DNA of 11,179 bases from Stephanodiscus triporus (lineage: Eukaryota; Bacillariophyta; Thalassiosirophyceae; Thalassiosirales; Thalassiosiraceae): NCBI GenBank assembly GCA_036939755.1, contig JALLAZ010000940.1:1-11179 (forward strand), read 5' to 3'. Within the stretch, counting starts at the first letter, position 1. The number at the start of each line of letters is the position of its first letter. A program made the translations under genes and the position numbers. Positions 2,456 to 11,179 of this stretch are shown piece after piece. The notes under the pieces are model-generated. The model ran no database searches and had not been told where the DNA came from. It saw only the letters and a program-made list of their open reading frames with translations.

Positions 2456-2526
2456 GTACGTAGCTATCTCACCACAGCGTGCCAAGGGGCTAAGCGGGTC
2501 TTAAGCCTCCAAGACGAGACAAGCAA

Positions 2527-2578
2527 GGCACGAAGTGCCAAGCGTTGTGATGTTTCCGTCCTGCCCCGAAGCTCGGGG
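2527..2578. repeat. Two compact hairpins
   Basis: GGCAC-GAA-GTGCC (2527-2539) is a perfect 5-bp stem with a 3-base loop. CCCCGA-AGC-TCGGGG (2564-2578) is a perfect 6-bp stem with a 3-base loop. They are 24 bases apart. Such tight paired hairpins suggest structured RNA or a terminal-repeat region of the retroelement. No known RNA family is recognised. Confidence 0.45.
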
Positions 2579-2720
2579 ACATGGCAATGACGTGGCCGAT
2601 GGGTTTTAACTCCCTGATCCCCGCCGCAGAAGGTAGGATGGAACTCGAAGCGACCCCGAAAGATTCTGACGTGTCTCAGAAATAAACAAGTGGGAATCTT
2701 ATGGGAGGGCACGCGGGAAT

Positions 2721-2793
2721 CACTATGTTTTATTTCGAAATAGTGGGTACGCGAAAGGCCGCGAGCCTACGAAGGATCTCCACTATTCGAAAT
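2721..2793. repeat. Imperfect 14-15-bp inverted repeat in element leader
   Basis: ATTTCGAAATAGTGG (2732-2746) is matched in reverse complement by CCACTATTCGAAAT (2780-2793), with one base missing. The left arm is itself paired with CACTAT at 2721-2726 (ATAGTG at 2740-2745). The CACTAT motif therefore occurs three times around a TTCGAA core. This is the strongest inverted repeat in the spacer. It may be part of a terminal or recombinase-recognition structure, or an RNA hairpin of the leader. Confidence 0.6.
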
Positions 2794-2908
2794 CAGGTTC
2801 GGAAAGGCGGGGAACGGAGTATCGGAGCGGCGGGGTCACGCTTCACCGATAAATCCACTCGCCTCCCCAAACCAAGCAAACAGTGCGAAGGCACCCAGGC
2901 AACGAGCT

Positions 2909-2933
2909 CACTTCATCAAGTTTAATTGAAGTG
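2909..2933. repeat. 7-bp inverted repeat in element leader
   Basis: CACTTCA (2909-2915) and TGAAGTG (2927-2933) are perfect reverse complements separated by an 11-base AT-rich loop. The site is about 180 bases upstream of the Gag start codon and would lie in the leader RNA if transcription starts upstream. A role in recombination or translation is only a guess. Confidence 0.45.
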
Positions 2934-3112
2934 CATCGCGTTGCCTTCGTCTCTGCCGTCGACTGCTTGTCGGAAGGAATTGGGAGGGGTCAAACGGCAC
3001 CTTCACGGCGGCCTAATTACCCGACACAGGGCCGACATTCTCCCCCAAATTTTCTTCTGCGGTCGTCGGCTACTCTTCGCGCGCCGTCGTCCCGTGCCAC
3101 CCACTTGTTCTC

Positions 3113-5773
3113 ATGTCAGCGGACCGCCGGCCCGAGGGGGGCGTCCCGCCTCCGGCGGGGCGCCTTTCCTCTGCGCTTTCTTCGCTTCAAGGTCGCTTTG
3201 CCGCGGCTGCGAGTTCTCCTGTTGGGGGGACGCCGGTGCCGAGAGGTGAGTCGTTTGCTTCGTCGGTCGCGTCGGTTCTCGGAGGGAGTTATGTTTTGCC
3301 GGGGGGGTTGGGGGGGAGGGGGTCATCGGTCGGAGGCGCCACCATCATCGAATCCGCGAGGGGGTCTTCGCCGAGCGCGAATGGCAGCACGGCCTTCGAG
3401 GTGATGGCGGGGTTTCGAGACCAGGTTATCTCCCCCTACTCAGCGGTGGAGGAAAATGAGGTACTCTTCTCCACGCCGACTGGCGCGGGGGTTGGACGCG
3501 AGGGAGTCCAAGATCCCACCTTCACGCTCGGGGCCACCCTTCACGAGATGAATGTGAAGGCTGCTGCGGGCCCTCCACGCACGCGCCGGCAGACAGCGCT
3601 CGAACAAGCCATGGGGCCCTTGGGGGGGGTACCAAGGCGCGAGGACGATGGATCTGTGAGCGGGGGGGACAACGACGGTGGGCGCCTCAAGGACCCTCCC
3701 CTGCTGGGGCCAAGCGCCGCGGAGGGGCTTCAGGGGGCATCCTCAAGCGTCAGGCTGTTTAGATACGACAAGACCGGGCCAGCTTTCTGCGGGGGCATAG
3801 TTGGAGGCTCGAAGAAGGCCCCGAAGCGGTTTTGTATTTCGCCCAACTGCGGAGCCGCGCACGCAAGGAAGGTCTTCGCACTGCTGGGCGACGGGGACTA
3901 CTACATCATCGAGCCTGCTCCTCGGGGGGGCTTAAGCCAAACTCTACGAGCATATCTTGACCCACCGCTCACCAAAGCGGCGGCCGAGTTCTCGCACGAC
4001 AACAAGGAGGTCCTGGAAGGGACCAACTCCCTGGAGGGCTGGCTGTCACTCTTCCGGTACTTGACTGATGCCGCCACCCGCGGGGACGCCGGGGCTGCGA
4101 CCACGGAGCTGGTGGGCTTCGCTTCGCGGGCTCGCCAGTCCGCGTTCAAGACTCCTCTGCGCGCCAACACGAGGCGGGCTCGGGAGGATGACTCGTTGGA
4201 CGAGGAGGACGGACCACCCCCCATCGTCCAAGATCTGCAAGACGCTATCTTAGGCGTTCAAGGGGAGCTGGGGGTGCGCCACCCAACGGCATCGTACGTC
4301 ACGATCCACGGGGGCCTCAAGAACCTCGAGGAGGACATCCGATCCGTCCAGGAGGGAGTGGAGGCACAGTTCAGGAGTGTGCTCTCAAGTAACCAAGCGA
4401 CGCTGGGGGCCCTCCAGTTCGAAACGTCCCAAGCCTCGGCAAGGAGTCAGGAGGTGAAGCGTTGGATGGAGCATTATCAAGCCACGGGGGGGGGGGCGGC
4501 TGAACTCTCCTCCAAGACGCAGGAGCTACAGGCGGAAGCAGCGGCCCTCCGGGGTCGTTGCGACTTCTTGGAAGGGGCCGTCACGCAGATGGCGTCCTAC
4601 GTCTCCGCGCTCAAGGACAGAGTCGACGCTGGGGGCGGTTTGGGGCCTGGCACCGCCACCACGCTCTCGCAGGTGACGCGAGGGGAATTTGACACCCACG
4701 TGCGAACAGTGCAGGTTGCACTGCAGGGCCTCCGCCAAGAGATGAAGGGAGCCCCGGTGGAGTTCGGAGGCTACAGCTTTCAGGGGTTAGATGCCTGCGT
4801 GGCATGGGCCAGGACCAACATGCCCGAGAACACCTATCAGTGCATCCCGGGGATGTTTTATGGACTTTGCCTTATCCGGGAGTCGGTGCTCTACAAGCAA
4901 GACATGAGGGAGGATGACATCCAAGCTCACAGGGTGCAGCGATCCCCCATGCAGTCGACGGTGGTGGAGTCGGTGAACACAGCCATCCCCTCCATCCTCG
5001 AAGGACCGAAGACTAATGCCATCAAGGATCCCAAGTATGACTTCGGGGCCATGAAGACGTATGCGGAGTGGAAGCCTACGAACGGCCAACCAGGCGTCTC
5101 GACCCGCTTGAAGGAAGGGCTCGAGGCATCGTGGCAACAGATACGGGGCGCAATCGATATGTTCCTGAGTACGAGCCCAGTGGCCAGGGGGGTCATGAAC
5201 GAGATGCTGGCCGAGTACAAGATCCTCTCTTCTCAGCTCTTGGTCACAGAAATCACGCTCTACTACGAGGAGATCTTATCCAAGACGGGAGGCGATCCCC
5301 CGCACAGCAAGGAGGTGAAGGAGTCCTGTTGGGCCCTGGTGACCAAGCTTTTAAGGACGGTACTCAAGGAGGTCCACAAAGTGCGCCGTTTTGCCGCCGA
5401 GGCGGTGTCTATTGGCTCGGACTCCCTCAGGACAAATGGGATGTTCCTCTACGCTGCCATGGAGGAGCTCCGCGTGTTACGGGAGTTTTCGGAGTGTGAC
5501 TGGCGGAATCACCCCAAGTTCAACCAGAGCATAGTTAGACATCTGTTCGAGACGTGTCTCCCCCGAGCGGTGTACGAGAACAGGAAGGAGGGCTCGCACA
5601 TTTTGAAATTTAACACGCTCGTGGCCACGGACGAGCGACAACAGGCGTTGATCAATGGCCTCTCAACGGGGCTTGGGGAGTTGCGCGCTAAGGTTGGGCT
5701 CCCACCGGCGAAGAAGAAAACCAAGTTCGCTCTGGGGTCCGCGGGGGGAGATCAGGTGGAACAGATCGAATGA
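3113..5773 (+). CDS. Gag-like protein of DIRS-order retrotransposon (ORF1)
   Basis: This encodes an 886-residue protein that would form the RNA-packaging particle. The role is inferred from its place upstream of RT, since no family is recognised. The ATG at 3113 is the first in a frame that is open from 3017. Residues 1-200 are low in complexity and rich in Gly, Ser, Pro and Ala. A Cys/His cluster, C226-x14-C241-x4-C246-x3-H250, sits in a small conserved-looking segment and could bind zinc. It is not the usual CCHC knuckle. An acidic stretch at 358-368 precedes a predominantly helical, probably coiled-coil region (about 370-545), followed by a helical globular region (about 550-850). Near the end is a basic patch, PAKKKTKF (865-872), which could be a nuclear localisation or nucleic-acid-binding signal. 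It ends at a single TGA (5771-5773) in the same frame as Pol, so a Gag-Pol readthrough product is likely. Confidence 0.75.
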   Translation: MSADRRPEGGVPPPAGRLSSALSSLQGRFAAAASSPVGGTPVPRGESFASSVASVLGGSYVLPGGLGGRGSSVGGATIIESARGSSPSANGSTAFEVMAGFRDQVISPYSAVEENEVLFSTPTGAGVGREGVQDPTFTLGATLHEMNVKAAAGPPRTRRQTALEQAMGPLGGVPRREDDGSVSGGDNDGGRLKDPPLLGPSAAEGLQGASSSVRLFRYDKTGPAFCGGIVGGSKKAPKRFCISPNCGAAHARKVFALLGDGDYYIIEPAPRGGLSQTLRAYLDPPLTKAAAEFSHDNKEVLEGTNSLEGWLSLFRYLTDAATRGDAGAATTELVGFASRARQSAFKTPLRANTRRAREDDSLDEEDGPPPIVQDLQDAILGVQGELGVRHPTASYVTIHGGLKNLEEDIRSVQEGVEAQFRSVLSSNQATLGALQFETSQASARSQEVKRWMEHYQATGGGAAELSSKTQELQAEAAALRGRCDFLEGAVTQMASYVSALKDRVDAGGGLGPGTATTLSQVTRGEFDTHVRTVQVALQGLRQEMKGAPVEFGGYSFQGLDACVAWARTNMPENTYQCIPGMFYGLCLIRESVLYKQDMREDDIQAHRVQRSPMQSTVVESVNTAIPSILEGPKTNAIKDPKYDFGAMKTYAEWKPTNGQPGVSTRLKEGLEASWQQIRGAIDMFLSTSPVARGVMNEMLAEYKILSSQLLVTEITLYYEEILSKTGGDPPHSKEVKESCWALVTKLLRTVLKEVHKVRRFAAEAVSIGSDSLRTNGMFLYAAMEELRVLREFSECDWRNHPKFNQSIVRHLFETCLPRAVYENRKEGSHILKFNTLVATDERQQALINGLSTGLGELRAKVGLPPAKKKTKFALGSAGGDQVEQIE
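3301..3322 (+). other. Potential G-quadruplex in Gag coding strand
   Basis: Three G runs of seven, seven and five, separated by TT and A, give at least four GGG blocks in 22 bases. This is the classic intramolecular G-quadruplex pattern in both the sense DNA strand and the mRNA. It lies about 190 bases after the Gag start codon and encodes Gly/Leu/Arg. Function is not known. Confidence 0.55.
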
Positions 5774-5833
5774 CAGGGGGGGCCTTCCCCGCTCGTAGCG
5801 GCTGTAAACCTAGTAAGCTCTGGCATTACTGCC
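5771..5833 (+). promoter_or_regulatory. Gag-Pol TGA readthrough site with downstream RNA structure
   Basis: TGA (5771-5773) is the only stop between Gag and Pol, and both lie in the same frame. It is followed by C, a +4 base that makes UGA leaky in many eukaryotes. A seven-G run comes next (5776-5782), able to pair with CCCC (5787-5790). Then comes a perfect hairpin, CCGCT-CGT-AGCGG (5789-5801), and a small one, GGCA-TTAC-TGCC (5822-5833). The first two helices share bases, so they are alternatives or could switch. The layout resembles programmed readthrough sites between gag and pol in some retroelements. The mechanism is inferred. Confidence 0.55.
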
Positions 5834-8800
5834 CACGAACCCTTGTGTTTATGGTCGGGACGGACGGGGGGGCGGATTGATCCTCACTCCGATCAGCTTT
5901 TGGTTCGAGGTTTCCTCAAATATCGTGCTACGCGCGGGTGGTGCGAGATCAGGGCCGCCGGCCCCAACCTGTGGTTTGCCGCGGTGCAGGCGTTGGGCTT
6001 CCAGATCGCCTCAATTCGGAGCAATTACACGCCCTTTGTGGATCTCATCCGCCCGTTCTGCGGGAGCGCGCGTGTTCTCTCGGCGCAGCCACGGCGCTTC
6101 AACTCGCTCCCGGACATTGTCTTCCTGGATCTTGGGTCGCTGCCGTGGGGCCAGGGATCCGACAAGTATTGGGAGGGCTGGCGCACGACACATGTCTTCT
6201 TCTGTTCGGGCGAGGACACGGACGCCGACGATGGGGTGCGGGCCGCTCCCCCCCCTCCGTGCCCCCCGGGGTGGTCCTCACGGTCGGTTGCCCTCTCCCA
6301 CCACGAGGCAGGGGGGACAACCTCGGGTAGATGGACTGTGGTTGCTTGGTACCCGCCTCTCATTCCCTTCTCGGAGCCCGTGCCGGTGGTCCCACAGTCT
6401 TGGTTTCCCCTGTTTAGCTACATCAAAGACAGGGAACGGGCCACACCCCACCCACCCCCGCCTGACGGTGGGGTCCTTGCAGAGGCCTCTGTGGTCCGGG
6501 TGGATGGTTTGGTCCAAGACTGGGGGCTCTTCCCCGCGTCCGATTTGGCCTCGGAGGTCCTTGTGCAATGCTCTTTCAGTCCTACGGGGTACGGTTCTCG
6601 GCGTCTCACGGGGCCTGAACTCGGGGGTTTGTGGGATTTGCCCATTTCAGTGCTGGATACACTGCAAGGACAGGACTCAACAACGATTTTGCAAGGTTTC
6701 TTTCAGTCGGCCCCTACCAAGATCCTCTTCGCGGGGGCCGATTTCTTGCTGACTGCGTCTTTCCGGGGGGGTTTAGGTGGTTTAAAGAGGGGGTTACAAC
6801 AGGGTCCGGTGGGGGGGCCCAGGCCGATTTTGGACTCCGCTCTCGGGCTCGCTCGGCCATTGGACCACACTTTCGAGCTTGCGGAGGTGGTAAAGGGGGA
6901 TTCTCAGAAGGCAGATGACGCGGCTGTCCCTGATCAACTGTGGCTCCACGCTTTTTTGAGGGGATACGCCGACCGGGACCCCCCTTCCGGTTGGCAGGCC
7001 TCTATGCCAGGATTCAGGGCTTTCGGGTTGCGGTATTGGAGGCGGCGAGCGGTCCGGGGTTATTTTAAATGGCGCCATTCAAACATACCATGGCAGTCCA
7101 ACCTGCCCACCCCAGCGCAGATGGTCCGCTGGAGGATGGGGATGGCGTTTGGACACCTTCGGCCAGTGTATGAGTGGACCGCCAAAGGCAGGTTGGCCTA
7201 CAACAAACAATGGGCCCTGCTTCGGAACTCGGAGGAGGGCGCGGCCACGGTGGAGGCAGGTTTTGACGCCATCCGGCGTTGCGCAAACGCCAGCTGGTTC
7301 GAATGGTTGGAGGGGTCGGCACCCCTATTTTGGAATTGGCCCAAGGAGTACCAAAGGGAGGTCAGAGATGGCCAGCCGCACTTTATCACTGGTTCGTTCG
7401 CCCCCCCGTACCTCCGCCCTCAGACGAAGCACAAGGACCCGGCAAAGCAAGAGTTGATGCGGGCCAAGGTGGTGAAGGTACGAAGGCTGGAATACATTAG
7501 GGCTGGAAGGGTGGTGAGTGGGACGAGCTTCTTCAGTGTGGACAAGGGGGCAACTGACATCAGGATGGTCTACAATGGGACCAGCTGTGGTCTTAACGAT
7601 GTCCTCTACGCCCCACACTTCGGGTTGCCCACTGTTCGAGCGACGCTGAGGGCAATATTACCGGGTTACTTCCAATGCGACCTAGATGTGCAAGACCAGT
7701 TCCTGAATTACAAGCTTCACAAGAGTTTGCGGGAGTATTCGGGGGTGGACGTCCGGGGGGTACGCTCGCTGGCCGCCGAGGATGCGGTTTGGGAAAAGCC
7801 ACGGCCTGCAAGGTGGGAGCGCTGGGAAAGGAACTGGATGGGTCTCAGGGACTCGCCTTACAGAAGCCTTCAATGGCAGGTCCGCCTGAAGCTGGTGGCC
7901 TATGGGGACCGGAAGAACGTCGCGAATCCATTTCATTGGGACCGTGTCGTGCTCAACTTGCCAGGTTCGCCGGGCTACAGGGCTGATCTGCCGTGGGTGA
8001 TGAAAATACGCATAGACGGCCACATCGCTGCAGAGATATTCGTGTATGTGGACGACGCACGGGCCATAGGGCACTCAGCTGAGATGGCTTGGCGAGTCGC
8101 TAGGTGCTACGCGGCCACTTGTGCTAGGCTCGGGGTACAAGACGCGGCGCGAAAGCGTACTTCGGCCTCGAGGACGCCAGGGCCGTGGGCCGGCACGGTC
8201 ACACACACGGACCAGGACCAAGTTTGTGGAATGGTCTCGCAGGAAAAGTGGGACAAGACACAAGCCTTGATACGGGAGCTTGACGGGATGTTAGCTCGGG
8301 ACCTCCTTCCTTTACAACGCCTCCTAGAGATCAGGGGTTTCTTGATCTATGTGGTGCGAACGTACCCCTGGTTAAACCCCTACATCAAGGGCCTGCACCT
8401 TACAGTGGATTCCTGGAGGCCAGGGCGGGCGGCGTCAGGTTTTAAGCTGAAAGGGGAGGAGTTGGAACAAGCCATGGCAATTTGGACTGCCAGTCGGGGA
8501 CTGCCATGTCGAAGGGAGGACGAGGATGGGCTTGAAGAGGCCAGCCCCACCCCCCTGCATTCCTCAGACGAGCCCCCGGGAGACGTAAGACCCGTGGCAA
8601 GGCTGAGGCGGGACATAGATTGCTTGCTCGAGCTGACCAAGTCGCAGCAACCCCCGCGACAGTTGTATAGAGCCAAACACGTCACGGCTTTCTTCGTCAT
8701 TGGGGATGCCAGTGGGGCGGGAAAGGGGGTCGCGGTGGTAGAGCAGTACGGCGTGGACTATGAGGCCGGGTCCTGGAAGGTGCAGTGGAGGAAGGAGTCC

Positions 8801-9841
8801 TCCAACGTGAGGGAGGCGGAGAACTTGACCGACCGTATCGAGAGGCTGTCGGAAGGGGGCACATTATTCGAACATGAGGTATTCGTGCTGACAGATAACT
8901 CAGCCTTTGAGGGGGCGTATTACAAGGGCCACTCACCAAGCGAGAAGTTGAATGCCATCGTATTCAGACTGCACAAGACGGAGCGCGATGGGGGCTTCAT
9001 TTTGCGAGTCCTTCACATTTCGGGGAAGAGGATGAAGGCTACAGGGGTGGACGGCCTCTCACGAGGGGATCTAACAGAAGGGGTGCTCGCCGGGGTAGAC
9101 CCTTTCACATTCCTCCCTTTTAACCTGGGGGCGGATGAGAGGTCCAAGGGTGCAGTGAGCACTTGGGTGCGGAGCTGGTGGAGGACCAAGAAAGGAGAGG
9201 ACTGGGGCGGTCTCTCGTTGGAAGAAGTCACAGCCGAATCCATGTTCGAGCTCAAGAACCTGGAGGCGGGAAGGCTGTGGCTTGTGGCCCCAGCAGTCAT
9301 GGAGACGGCCCTGGAGCTGTTTTGCGAGGACCGGATGGCCCACCCCCAGTGGCCGCACGTGTTTGTAATCCCACGTTTGATGACGCATATGTGGAGGAAA
9401 GACTTGGGGAAGGATGCAGATGTACTTTTCACCGTTCCTGCGGGTGTAAATTTTTGGGCCTCTGGCCAGTTCGAGCCTCTAATAATTGCCATCGTTTTCC
9501 CCCTTGCGCATGTACCAAGGTATACAGGACCCTGGCTGGTTAAGGGAACTGACGAAGGGGCACGATACGAACGGGCTCTTACTGACGGGTTCAGGGGAGA
9601 TGACCCAGGGGAATTACATGAGCTGGGAGGGAGCTTGCAACGCGTGTGGGAAGATGCGGCGAGCGGGTCACGGGCTGTTCTGCAGCAACTTCTTGCTTGG
9701 GCGGGGGGATTTTCGCCCGTGCAGAAATGTTTGGTGCGGTCCGTGTTACCGAGAGGCCTCAAGCGATCCCTTTCCGAGACTGGACAAGAACGGAGATGCA
9801 AACGGCTCCGACCTGGATCTGGGCACACAAGAGTCGCCTGA
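5774..9841 (+). CDS. Pol: reverse transcriptase and RNase H of DIRS-order element (ORF2)
   Basis: This frame opens directly after the Gag TGA and has no ATG until 7004, so it is most likely translated as a Gag-Pol fusion. An ATG start at 7004 would remove about 410 residues but keep RT. The N-terminal region (about 5774-7300) is unassigned. RT lies at about 7430-8212. Motif A is DVQDQF with the catalytic Asp at 7685-7687, a motif B-like MGLRDSP lies at about 7838-7858, and YVDD is at 8045-8056. RNase H lies at about 8675-9076. Its acidic residues are Asp at 8705 (GDAS), Glu at 8813 (NVREAE), Asp at 8894 (LTDNS) and Asp at 9050 (GVDGLSRG), with a preceding His in LHISGK. A further unassigned domain (about 9140-9540) has W-RKDLGKDADVLFTVPAG and EPLI-AIVFP motifs. 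The last 332 bases overlap the recombinase gene in another phase. No aspartic protease or DDE integrase motif is evident. The RT/RNase H call is firm; the start is not. Confidence 0.88.
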   Translation, partial: QGGPSPLVAAVNLVSSGITAHEPLCLWSGRTGGRIDPHSDQLLVRGFLKYRATRGWCEIRAAGPNLWFAAVQALGFQIASIRSNYTPFVDLIRPFCGSARVLSAQPRRFNSLPDIVFLDLGSLPWGQGSDKYWEGWRTTHVFFCSGEDTDADDGVRAAPPPPCPPGWSSRSVALSHHEAGGTTSGRWTVVAWYPPLIPFSEPVPVVPQSWFPLFSYIKDRERATPHPPPPDGGVLAEASVVRVDGLVQDWGLFPASDLASEVLVQCSFSPTGYGSRRLTGPELGGLWDLPISVLDTLQGQDSTTILQGFFQSAPTKILFAGADFLLTASFRGGLGGLKRGLQQGPVGGPRPILDSALGLARPLDHTFELAEVVKGDSQKADDAAVPDQLWLHAFLRGYADRDPPSGWQASMPGFRAFGLRYWRRRAVRGYFKWRHSNIPWQSNLPTPAQMVRWRMGMAFGHLRPVYEWTAKGRLAYNKQWALLRNSEEGAATVEAGFDAIRRCANASWFEWLEGSAPLFWNWPKEYQREVRDGQPHFITGSFAPPYLRPQTKHKDPAKQELMRAKVVKVRRLEYIRAGRVVSGTSFFSVDKGATDIRMVYNGTSCGLNDVLYAPHFGLPTVRATLRAILPGYFQCDLDVQDQFLNYKLHKSLREYSGVDVRGVRSLAAEDAVWEKPRPARWERWERNWMGLRDSPYRSLQWQVRLKLVAYGDRKNVANPFHWDRVVLNLPGSPGYRADLPWVMKIRIDGHIAAEIFVYVDDARAIGHSAEMAWRVARCYAATCARLGVQDAARKRTSASRTPGPWAGTVTHTDQDQVCGMVSQEKWDKTQALIRELDGMLARDLLPLQRLLEIRGFLIYVVRTYPWLNPYIKGLHLTVDSWRPGRAASGFKLKGEELEQAMAIWTASRGLPCRREDEDGLEEASPTPLHSSDEPPGDVRPVARLRRDIDCLLELTKSQQPPRQLYRAKHVTAFFVIGDASGAGKGVAVVEQYGVDYEAGSWKVQWRKESSNVREAENLTDRIERLSEGGTLFEHEVFVLTDNSAFEGAYYKGHSPSEKLNAIVFRLHKTERDGGFILRVLHISGKRMKATGVDGLSRGDLTEGVLAGVDPFTFLPFNLGADERSKGAVSTWVRSWWRTKKGEDWGGLSLEEVTAESMFELKNLEAGRLWLVAPAVMETALELFCEDRMAHPQWPHVFVIPRLMTHMWRKDLGKDADVLFTVPAGVNFWASGQFEPLIIAIVFPLAHVPRYTGPWLVKGTDEGARYERALTDGFRGDDPGELHELGGSLQRVWEDAASGSRAVLQQLLAWAGGFSPVQKCLVRSVLPRGLKRSLSETGQERRCKRLRPGSGHTRVA

Positions 9842-11108
9842 CAGATACCGCTGTGGCCGGAACGGTGATCATTTGATGGGGGTCCCGTTCGAGTGCGACC
9901 TATGCTCGTTTCGAAATGTGACCGGGAGGGATCCAGTGCTAGGAGACTACAATGACCACTTCACTCTGGTGTCTATACGGAGGGTGCTATTGGATGTAAT
10001 GTGGGCAAGGGAGCCTGACACAGTAGCCGGGAACTGGGCACGGAGCCGCAGGGATTACGTGACTGCCGTAAGCCATCTAAGCCTCCGCACCGAGTCCCTA
10101 CTGCCTGCGTTGGGCAACCCTACTGTTAGCGACAGACTGGGCCTTGGAGTCGCTATACTCACGGTAGTCACATCGCTGCGGGCAGGTCAGAACTCGTTGA
10201 CCATTCAGTACGACACCATGCGGAAGACGCAGACCTGGTATGGGAATGCTTTTGATGCAGGGAGGGAATACGCCTGCGACACGGTTGTGGGGCTAGACCA
10301 AAAGAAACAGTATCTGTCCCACAGCCACACGTTCGGAAAGTGGTTCAGCAGGTTCATGAGGGGTGCCCGCCTTCGGATGGGAATGATCAGGAGACAGAAC
10401 GAGGCACTGACCTCAGCTATGGTGCTTGCGATGTGCAGGCGGGCCGAGGCGGATTGGAGGACGGCGCAGAGTGCGGGGAGGAGGATCGAGGTCGAGGATA
10501 CAGTTTGTTTCATGCTACTCGGGTTCGGGTCCGGACTGAGGGGGGAAGAGGTACCGTTGGTAAGCCTGGAGGGACTGCTTACCTTCTGGAAAGAGACCAG
10601 GGAGGAGGAGGACAAATATATGATGATCACCCTGAGAGGGAGGTTCAAGGGGGAGGTGGATGAACGGTGGCACATCGTGCCGATCTGCGACGAGACCCGA
10701 TCCGGAATCCCCTTCCGCCTTTGGATGGAGCGCATAATGTACCGACGCGTGGCACTTCAGGGCAAGACCACCGGGTGGCTATTTGAGGAGAAGACAGGCA
10801 AGAGGGCAAAATTTGGGAAATACCAGGACTACTTCAGGTCTCTGATTGAACGCGTGAGAGAGGAGGACCCGAAGCTTCTGCCAAGTGCCATAGAAACAAC
10901 GGACTTTAGCCTCTGGCGCTCACTCCGCCGGGGGGCAGTGCTGGAGACCACGAACCATGGAGTTGATGTGCAGGTGATCGAGCTCATCAACAGGTGGCGC
11001 AAGAAAGAAGCAGCTCGTGGGTCAGAGGCGGGGCTCCCCATGCGCCAGGTGTATACTCAAGTGCGGAGCACCTTGCCCACCATGAAGGAATTTTCGAGAG
11101 CGTTGTAA
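9510..11108 (+). CDS. Tyrosine recombinase with Cys-rich N-terminus (ORF3)
   Basis: This encodes a 532-residue protein from the first ATG of a frame that opens at 9486. It would integrate the circular DNA intermediate by covalent Tyr chemistry in the nucleus. Residues 43-79 hold a Cys array (C43, C46, C58, C71, C76, C79), followed by a GDHLM....ECDLCSFRN segment (C115, H121, C129, C132), so a zinc-binding module is likely. A helical core-binding region follows (about 150-310). The catalytic domain shows box I Arg (GLRGEE, codon 10539), box II RSLRRG (Arg codon at 10926), W in NRWRKK (10995-10997) and Tyr in QVYTQV (11052-11054). The box II position usually held by His carries Arg. The start overlaps Pol by 332 bases in the +1 phase, so translation may use internal initiation, frameshifting or a separate mRNA. 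Stop TAA is at 11106-11108. Confidence 0.85.
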   Translation: MYQGIQDPGWLRELTKGHDTNGLLLTGSGEMTQGNYMSWEGACNACGKMRRAGHGLFCSNFLLGRGDFRPCRNVWCGPCYREASSDPFPRLDKNGDANGSDLDLGTQESPDRYRCGRNGDHLMGVPFECDLCSFRNVTGRDPVLGDYNDHFTLVSIRRVLLDVMWAREPDTVAGNWARSRRDYVTAVSHLSLRTESLLPALGNPTVSDRLGLGVAILTVVTSLRAGQNSLTIQYDTMRKTQTWYGNAFDAGREYACDTVVGLDQKKQYLSHSHTFGKWFSRFMRGARLRMGMIRRQNEALTSAMVLAMCRRAEADWRTAQSAGRRIEVEDTVCFMLLGFGSGLRGEEVPLVSLEGLLTFWKETREEEDKYMMITLRGRFKGEVDERWHIVPICDETRSGIPFRLWMERIMYRRVALQGKTTGWLFEEKTGKRAKFGKYQDYFRSLIERVREEDPKLLPSAIETTDFSLWRSLRRGAVLETTNHGVDVQVIELINRWRKKEAARGSEAGLPMRQVYTQVRSTLPTMKEFSRAL

Positions 11109-11179
11109 GGGAAGACCTTCAAGAAATCTGTACGGGGGGGTTTTTCTCATAGTTTATGATTCATCTTTGGACTTGTTGA
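11109..11179 (+). other. Start of element 3' region, cut by window edge
   Basis: The 71 bases after the recombinase stop contain no gene. They include a seven-G run joined to a five-T run (11134-11145) and then AT-rich sequence. In this order of elements the terminal repeats follow the recombinase gene, so they should begin here or just beyond. A 16-base segment at 11162-11177 matches 2357-2372 at 14 positions, which is only suggestive. Confidence 0.4.

Follow-up and report, generated by a model that had tools for sequence, protein, structure and literature searches.

Probable programmed UGA readthrough between gag and pol in DIRS-like retrotransposons of thalassiosiralean diatoms

Described readthrough systems and the DIRS-like setting

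Readthrough of UGA has been described for alphaviruses, tobraviruses and coltiviruses, while the retroviral sites carry UAG (PMC3542737). UGA sites followed by CGG or CUA, often with a stem 6–12 bases downstream, have been described (PMC11166343). For ilarviruses, the argument for readthrough combined an in-frame extension with a leaky UGA-C context and the absence of any in-frame AUG that is conserved, and the evidence presented below follows the same logic (PMC11166343). We analyzed a stretch of 11,179 nucleotides from Stephanodiscus triporus (contig JALLAZ010000940.1 of assembly GCA_036939755.1, hereafter the window), in which gag and pol of a DIRS-like retrotransposon are separated by an in-frame UGA (Table 1). 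This junction resembles the type II sites of alphaviruses, tobraviruses and coltiviruses in its UGA-C, and a stem-loop downstream, as at those sites, is predicted in part of the copies, but the classical 3' triplet is CGG or CUA, whereas the window has CAG, and both the host and the gene are different (PMC3542737, PMC11166343). With UGA CAG, the window is therefore not classed as a classical type II site; UGA CGG was present in only one of nine related copies (contig C37), which also has the strongest predicted stem. As in murine leukaemia virus, a gammaretrovirus, gag and pol form one frame with one stop, and Pol would be a minor fusion product. However, the virus uses UAG, a spacer and a compact pseudoknot (PMC3542737), whereas here UGA is combined with a long predicted stem in part of the copies. 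Where gammaretroviral type III sites have UAG, the stop is TGA in the window and in 9 of 11 copies overall.

Among retrotransposons, Tca2 of Candida albicans also carries an in-frame UGA between gag and pol, and the absence of readthrough when this junction was placed in a yeast reporter is a warning against the readthrough reading proposed here (PMC2194720). Tca2 differs from the present element in being an LTR element. Soybean SIRE1, another LTR element, is similar in that it is a retrotransposon with an in-frame stop between its ORFs. A paper on diatom retrotransposons mentions LTR elements in which gag and pol are separated by a single stop codon or frameshift, or by none (PMC2806351). DIRS1, PAT and Ngaro share with the present element a gag-like ORF, reverse transcriptase/RNase H and, in many of them, a recombinase ORF that overlaps pol; they differ in that they are presented with three ORFs, some of them with a methyltransferase domain, and that no readthrough of a gag-pol stop is described in the available parts of the overview (PMC3266345). 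The same parts of this DIRS overview, and the available parts of reports on decapod DIRS elements (PMC2685390), Cafeteria Ngaro (PMC8547959), VIPER/TATE (PMC6681497), Dictyostelium (a review, PMC5633606) and Chlamydomonas genomes (PMC8226300), describe neither a gag-pol stop nor readthrough, and these excerpts of the DIRS literature do not address how the ratio of Gag to Pol is set. Readthrough in DIRS-type elements was also not found in the titles and abstract openings among the literature matches listed, which is no proof of absence. The kind of recoding is established, and it is its setting in DIRS-like elements for which these sources yielded no description. If our reading is true, retroviral-style readthrough would extend to tyrosine-recombinase retrotransposons and to diatoms, the junction could serve in algae as a reporter of readthrough provided by nature, and in the annotation of these genomes gene callers would divide a single polyprotein between two genes.

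Table 1. Features of the DIRS-like element in the window (positions within the 11,179-nucleotide stretch).
Feature	Position	Strand	Remarks
DIRS-like retrotransposon	2470..11179	+	left boundary about 2470; right end outside the window
gag ORF, 886 aa, terminal codons ATC GAA TGA	3113..5773	+	ORF call; 14 gag relatives
In-frame UGA, followed by CAG GGG GGG	5771..5773	+	
pol frame, 1355 codons	5774..9841	+	without in-frame ATG before 7004
5' arm of predicted long stem	5778..5813	+	inside linker codons 1–25 (weak protein constraint)
Earlier proposed 5-bp hairpin	5789..5801	+	present, not conserved
3' arm of predicted long stem	5845..5890	+	encodes LWSGRTGGR, where conserved pol begins
Reverse transcriptase and RNase H region, modelled	7391..9553	+	structure model and fold matches
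RNase H within the modelled region	about 8678–9070	+	fold matches
Third ORF, probable tyrosine recombinase	9486..11108	+	+1 relative to pol, overlaps pol

Conservation of the junction and alternative routes to Pol

An earlier note on this DNA had read gag and pol as one frame divided by a lone TGA, followed by C and a run of G, with the first ATG of the Pol frame at position 7004. Our analysis bears out each of these points: the TGA closes gag, the same frame stays open up to a TGA at 9839–9841, CAG and the G run follow the stop, and the ATG at 7004 is codon 411 of pol. Programmed readthrough, which the note had proposed for this arrangement, is supported by an in-frame conserved stop in all 11 copies with a recognizable junction, from which we infer the mechanism. 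We assign a probability of about 0.8 to the reading that programmed UGA readthrough generates Gag-Pol in this DIRS-like retrotransposon of thalassiosiralean diatoms. Most ribosomes would terminate at the UGA and release Gag, and a minority would insert an amino acid and continue to Gag-Pol, by which a low Pol:Gag ratio would be fixed from a single RNA. The leaky UGA-C context, present in 6 of 9 copies, would raise the frequency of readthrough, as would, in several elements, a stem that begins a few bases 3' of the stop.

The copies were identified by searches of the same 21.65-Mb assembly, for which gag and pol and also more distant versions of both, in the case of pol a piece, served as queries. 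At least 21 contigs matched, and both sides of the junction were recognizable in 11 of these 21. In all 11 copies, which are mutually related and whose junction DNA comes entirely from one genome, gag and pol lie in one frame with an intervening stop; a sense codon or a shift of frame in most relatives, which the earlier note had named as counting against readthrough, was found in none (0/11 each). A single TGA is present in nine copies (the window, C578, C1133, C1315, C1086, C1304, C807, C714 and C37), followed by C in six, by T in two and by G in one. The other two copies are decayed: C636 has TAA, with its last gag codons, recognized by eye, coming after a frameshift, and C679 has TAG-GAC-TGA at the junction and another TGA later in the linker. 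Outside this count are C293, C140 and C252, which end inside pol, C83, C907, C332 and C1263, in which the stretches examined contained no recognizable junction, as well as C706, and C1202, which has a gag piece only. C1319 contains only the end of gag, again with TGA CAG GG, in a gag frame that is broken upstream of the TGA. Both gag and pol are fully open only in the window and in C1133 (2/11), and both of these copies keep TGA CAG GG. The pol sequences of the distant group share about 30–39% protein identity with that of the window. TGA is also frequent at the other stops of these elements (4/6 pol ends and 3/5 third-ORF ends), so that where the stop stands carries more weight than its being a TGA. 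The motif TCGAATGACAGGG, with one mismatch allowed, occurs at 33 places in the genome, with exact matches only in C578 and C928, and is not specific by itself, since the reversed control gave 18 places. Relatives were not found in the public viral and prokaryote contigs that were scanned.

In the close group, the linker between the stop and the first conserved block of pol comprises 25, 26 and 22 codons; both members of the C1315 group have 48 codons and those of the C1304 group 41, 49, 45 and 44, and across these nine copies the differences in length are whole codons. Summed over the nine linkers, there are 18 stops in frame +1 and 11 in frame +2 but none in frame 0 (9/9 stop-free). In the comparison of the window with C578, pol codons 1–25 had a dN/dS of about 0.64, indicating weak protein constraint, and codons 26–75 a dN/dS of 0.08, indicating strong constraint. 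The 171 aligned codons from codon 26 up to codon 197 of C578 gave a dN/dS of 0.11, and by this sequence-based measure pol codons 26–196 are under purifying selection. The first in-frame ATG of C578 is codon 198, against codon 411 in the window, so that the constrained codons precede the first in-frame ATG of both elements and the conserved protein starts where no AUG of the same frame can begin it.

Alternatively, pol would be translated separately, from a non-AUG start, by internal entry, by reinitiation after gag, or from its own transcript, with the promoter lying at the junction. In the window and in C578, the stop is part of an ATGA overlap, which would suit such a route, as would the minor promoter activity and the lack of readthrough that were seen for the Tca2 junction in yeast (PMC2194720). 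However, separate translation would leave the frame and the length of the linker free, yet all 11 copies are in frame and frame 0 of the linker is stop-free in all nine copies. Furthermore, the first in-frame ATGs are spread over codons 5 to 411 and not common to the copies, and the ATG of the ATGA overlap lies outside the pol frame and is replaced by GTGA in C1133. We consider separate translation of pol unlikely.

Somewhat more doubtful still is splicing by which the UGA or the greater part of gag would be excised, with the CAG after the stop serving as 3' splice site. TGACAG/G is present in the window, C578 and C1133, all of which have a GT at -15 that would form a frame-keeping pair of 21 nt. 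An intron joining the two frames had been raised in the earlier note; when the 150 bases to each side of the stop were compared among the three closest elements, no GT-AG pair other than this 21-nt one had the same offsets in all of them. Against its use stands that 21 nt are too short for an ordinary intron, that none of the upstream GTs within 150 bases passed a simple donor filter, and that CAG directly after the stop is missing in six more distant single-TGA elements, in which the in-frame TGA is nevertheless kept. Recoding of the UGA as selenocysteine or its alteration by RNA editing would agree with the absence of any stop other than UGA from 9 of 11 copies and with the fact that diatoms possess selenoproteins. 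Nevertheless, Rfam, which includes SECIS families, returned no match at the gathering threshold for the window and the C1133 locus, and Cys or another sense codon was found at the stop site in 0/11 copies, leaving this explanation highly improbable. Although several copies are damaged elsewhere, a private disabling mutation is ruled out, and an origin of the TGA from such a mutation or from an assembly error has next to no probability, because the same stop occurs in nine diverged copies, the fully open C1133 among them.

Predicted RNA structure after the stop

As a possible stimulator of readthrough, the earlier note had pointed to CCGCTCGTAGCGG at 5789–5801. The perfect 5-bp hairpin is indeed present in the window but, judged by eye like the pairing itself, it is conserved in neither C578 nor C1133, which argues against a role as signal. 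According to our structure predictions, a longer stem between the bases after the stop and about 5845–5890 should replace it as the proposed stimulator. When the window, C578 and C1133 were folded independently, the post-stop bases paired with the same conserved pol codons approximately 65–120 bases downstream. Comparison with shuffled sequences gave z-scores of -2.64 for C578 and -3.85 for C1133, and for the junction of the window whole-region folding was no better than shuffles (z -0.30; lowest -0.40 in the ranking described below).

We ranked the junctions against 630 sampled positions from the nine elements, using the lowest z of three folding lengths. The lowest values were -5.88 for C37, -3.41 for C1133, -3.11 for C578, -3.03 for C1315 and -2.86 for C807, and these five of nine junctions match the top 2.5% of the 630 positions. 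Values for C1086 (-1.92), C714 (-1.27), C1304 (-0.63) and the window were unremarkable. Combined over the nine junctions, Fisher's method gave p = 1e-5 and a rank test p = 0.0002. With randomization of synonymous codons as control, the signal dropped to a Fisher p of 0.0016, and only C37, C1133 and C578 remained below 0.05.

Tested against 2000 shuffled versions of the 5' arm, the natural pairing between the two arms was stronger, with p = 0.004 for the window, 0.003 for C578 and 0.0005 for C1133. The element's own 3' arm was the best partner of the 5' arm in 3/3 elements, with a margin over the next best of only 0.8 kcal/mol in the window and 1.2 kcal/mol in C1133. RNAalifold, applied to the same three sequences, predicted a stem of 28 pairs joining the same two regions. 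In this small sample (n = 3), 92% of the stem cells were standard-paired, compared to 51–60% when the alignment was slid by 1–3 columns, and four pairs were changed on both sides, a number reached by 9 of 500 shuffles. In the single folds, the partners in the middle of the stem drift by about four bases between elements, and what we claim is therefore less a set of fixed pairs than a pairing that is maintained between two regions. Alignment of copies had been suggested in the earlier note to look for a conserved TGA together with conserved downstream pairing: the TGA is found in 9/11 copies and the stem is predicted in the closest three, but by whole-region z the window does not stand out.

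Extending this model, we are inclined, with clear reservations, to think that the whole radiation of diatom DIRS-like elements, down to about 30% identity in pol, makes Gag-Pol by an ancient programmed UGA readthrough. The linker would then mainly represent one arm of an RNA stem, with conserved pol coding sequence as the other arm, and would be constrained by RNA pairing rather than by protein sequence. Within the 3' arm, TTATGGTCGGG at 5849–5859 is identical in the window, C578 and C1133 and includes a TTA codon in otherwise GC-rich DNA; this sequence identity hints at a constraint on the RNA.

Third ORF, protein relatives and element ends

Two features of DIRS elements were found in the window, namely reverse transcriptase plus RNase H in pol, as indicated by the structure model and fold matches, and an overlap of pol with the putative recombinase ORF, which spans 9486–9841. 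The third ORF is in frame +1 relative to pol in 5/5 copies examined. Arginine, lysine, arginine and tyrosine blocks, which we take to be the tyrosine recombinase motif, are kept in most of 8 aligned third ORFs, and on this sequence pattern the third ORF is probably a tyrosine recombinase. Pfam gave no match in five third ORFs, the structure model failed to fold (pLDDT 32), and the single hit in PHROGs, to a family without assigned function, was weak (E 0.076). Neither the pol profile nor the third ORF matched a solved structure in a sequence search. Pol had no Pfam match, and thus none to a methyltransferase domain, although divergence may hide one. The pol frame does not run into the third ORF past its own stop, as the two are in different frames. 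At the pol stop of the window (9839–9844) the sequence is likewise TGA CAG, as in C293, and C1133 has TGA CGC at this place.

Relatives of the gag and pol proteins were scored, in each search, among the approximately 8000 candidates with most shared words. For gag, at least 14 relatives were found; the nine of them that extend to the C-terminus end in Ile-Glu in seven cases, in Ile-Lys in one and differently in one (P0047). A fusion of gag to pol was not found, with 0 of the 50 pol relatives listed matching any of 20 gag queries and proteins of more than 2371 aa lying outside the candidates of the main pol search; a further search enlarged the set by six short fragments of pol. In the metagenomic pol protein P0019, the first residues fit the junction DNA in another frame, so that the UGA and pol seem to be out of frame in this copy, which by its sequence seems to be a contrary case to the in-frame junction. 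In P0023, a protein from Conticribra weissflogii, pol is joined to third-ORF sequence and the start lies inside pol, which suggests that gene callers misread these elements.

The left boundary of the element was placed where homology to C578 and C293 starts (2470–2471), and at this point C293 has a 3' end adjoining a 5' end. DIRS elements have inverted terminal or split direct repeats and lack LTRs; here, repeats of at least 22–25 nt were not found at the element ends in the stretches of the window, C1133, C140, C578 and C1315, several of which lack an end, and none were shared by the two ends of C578. At about 4572 on the reverse strand of C293, two copies meet, with the 3' end of one lying immediately next to the 5' end of the other, an arrangement that would fit a tandem insertion or a circle-junction intermediate. 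Nine palindromic units of 24 bases, of the ATGATACGAATTCGTATCAT type, occupy positions 12–228 of C578, approximately 100 bases to the left of where the element begins, at about 330.
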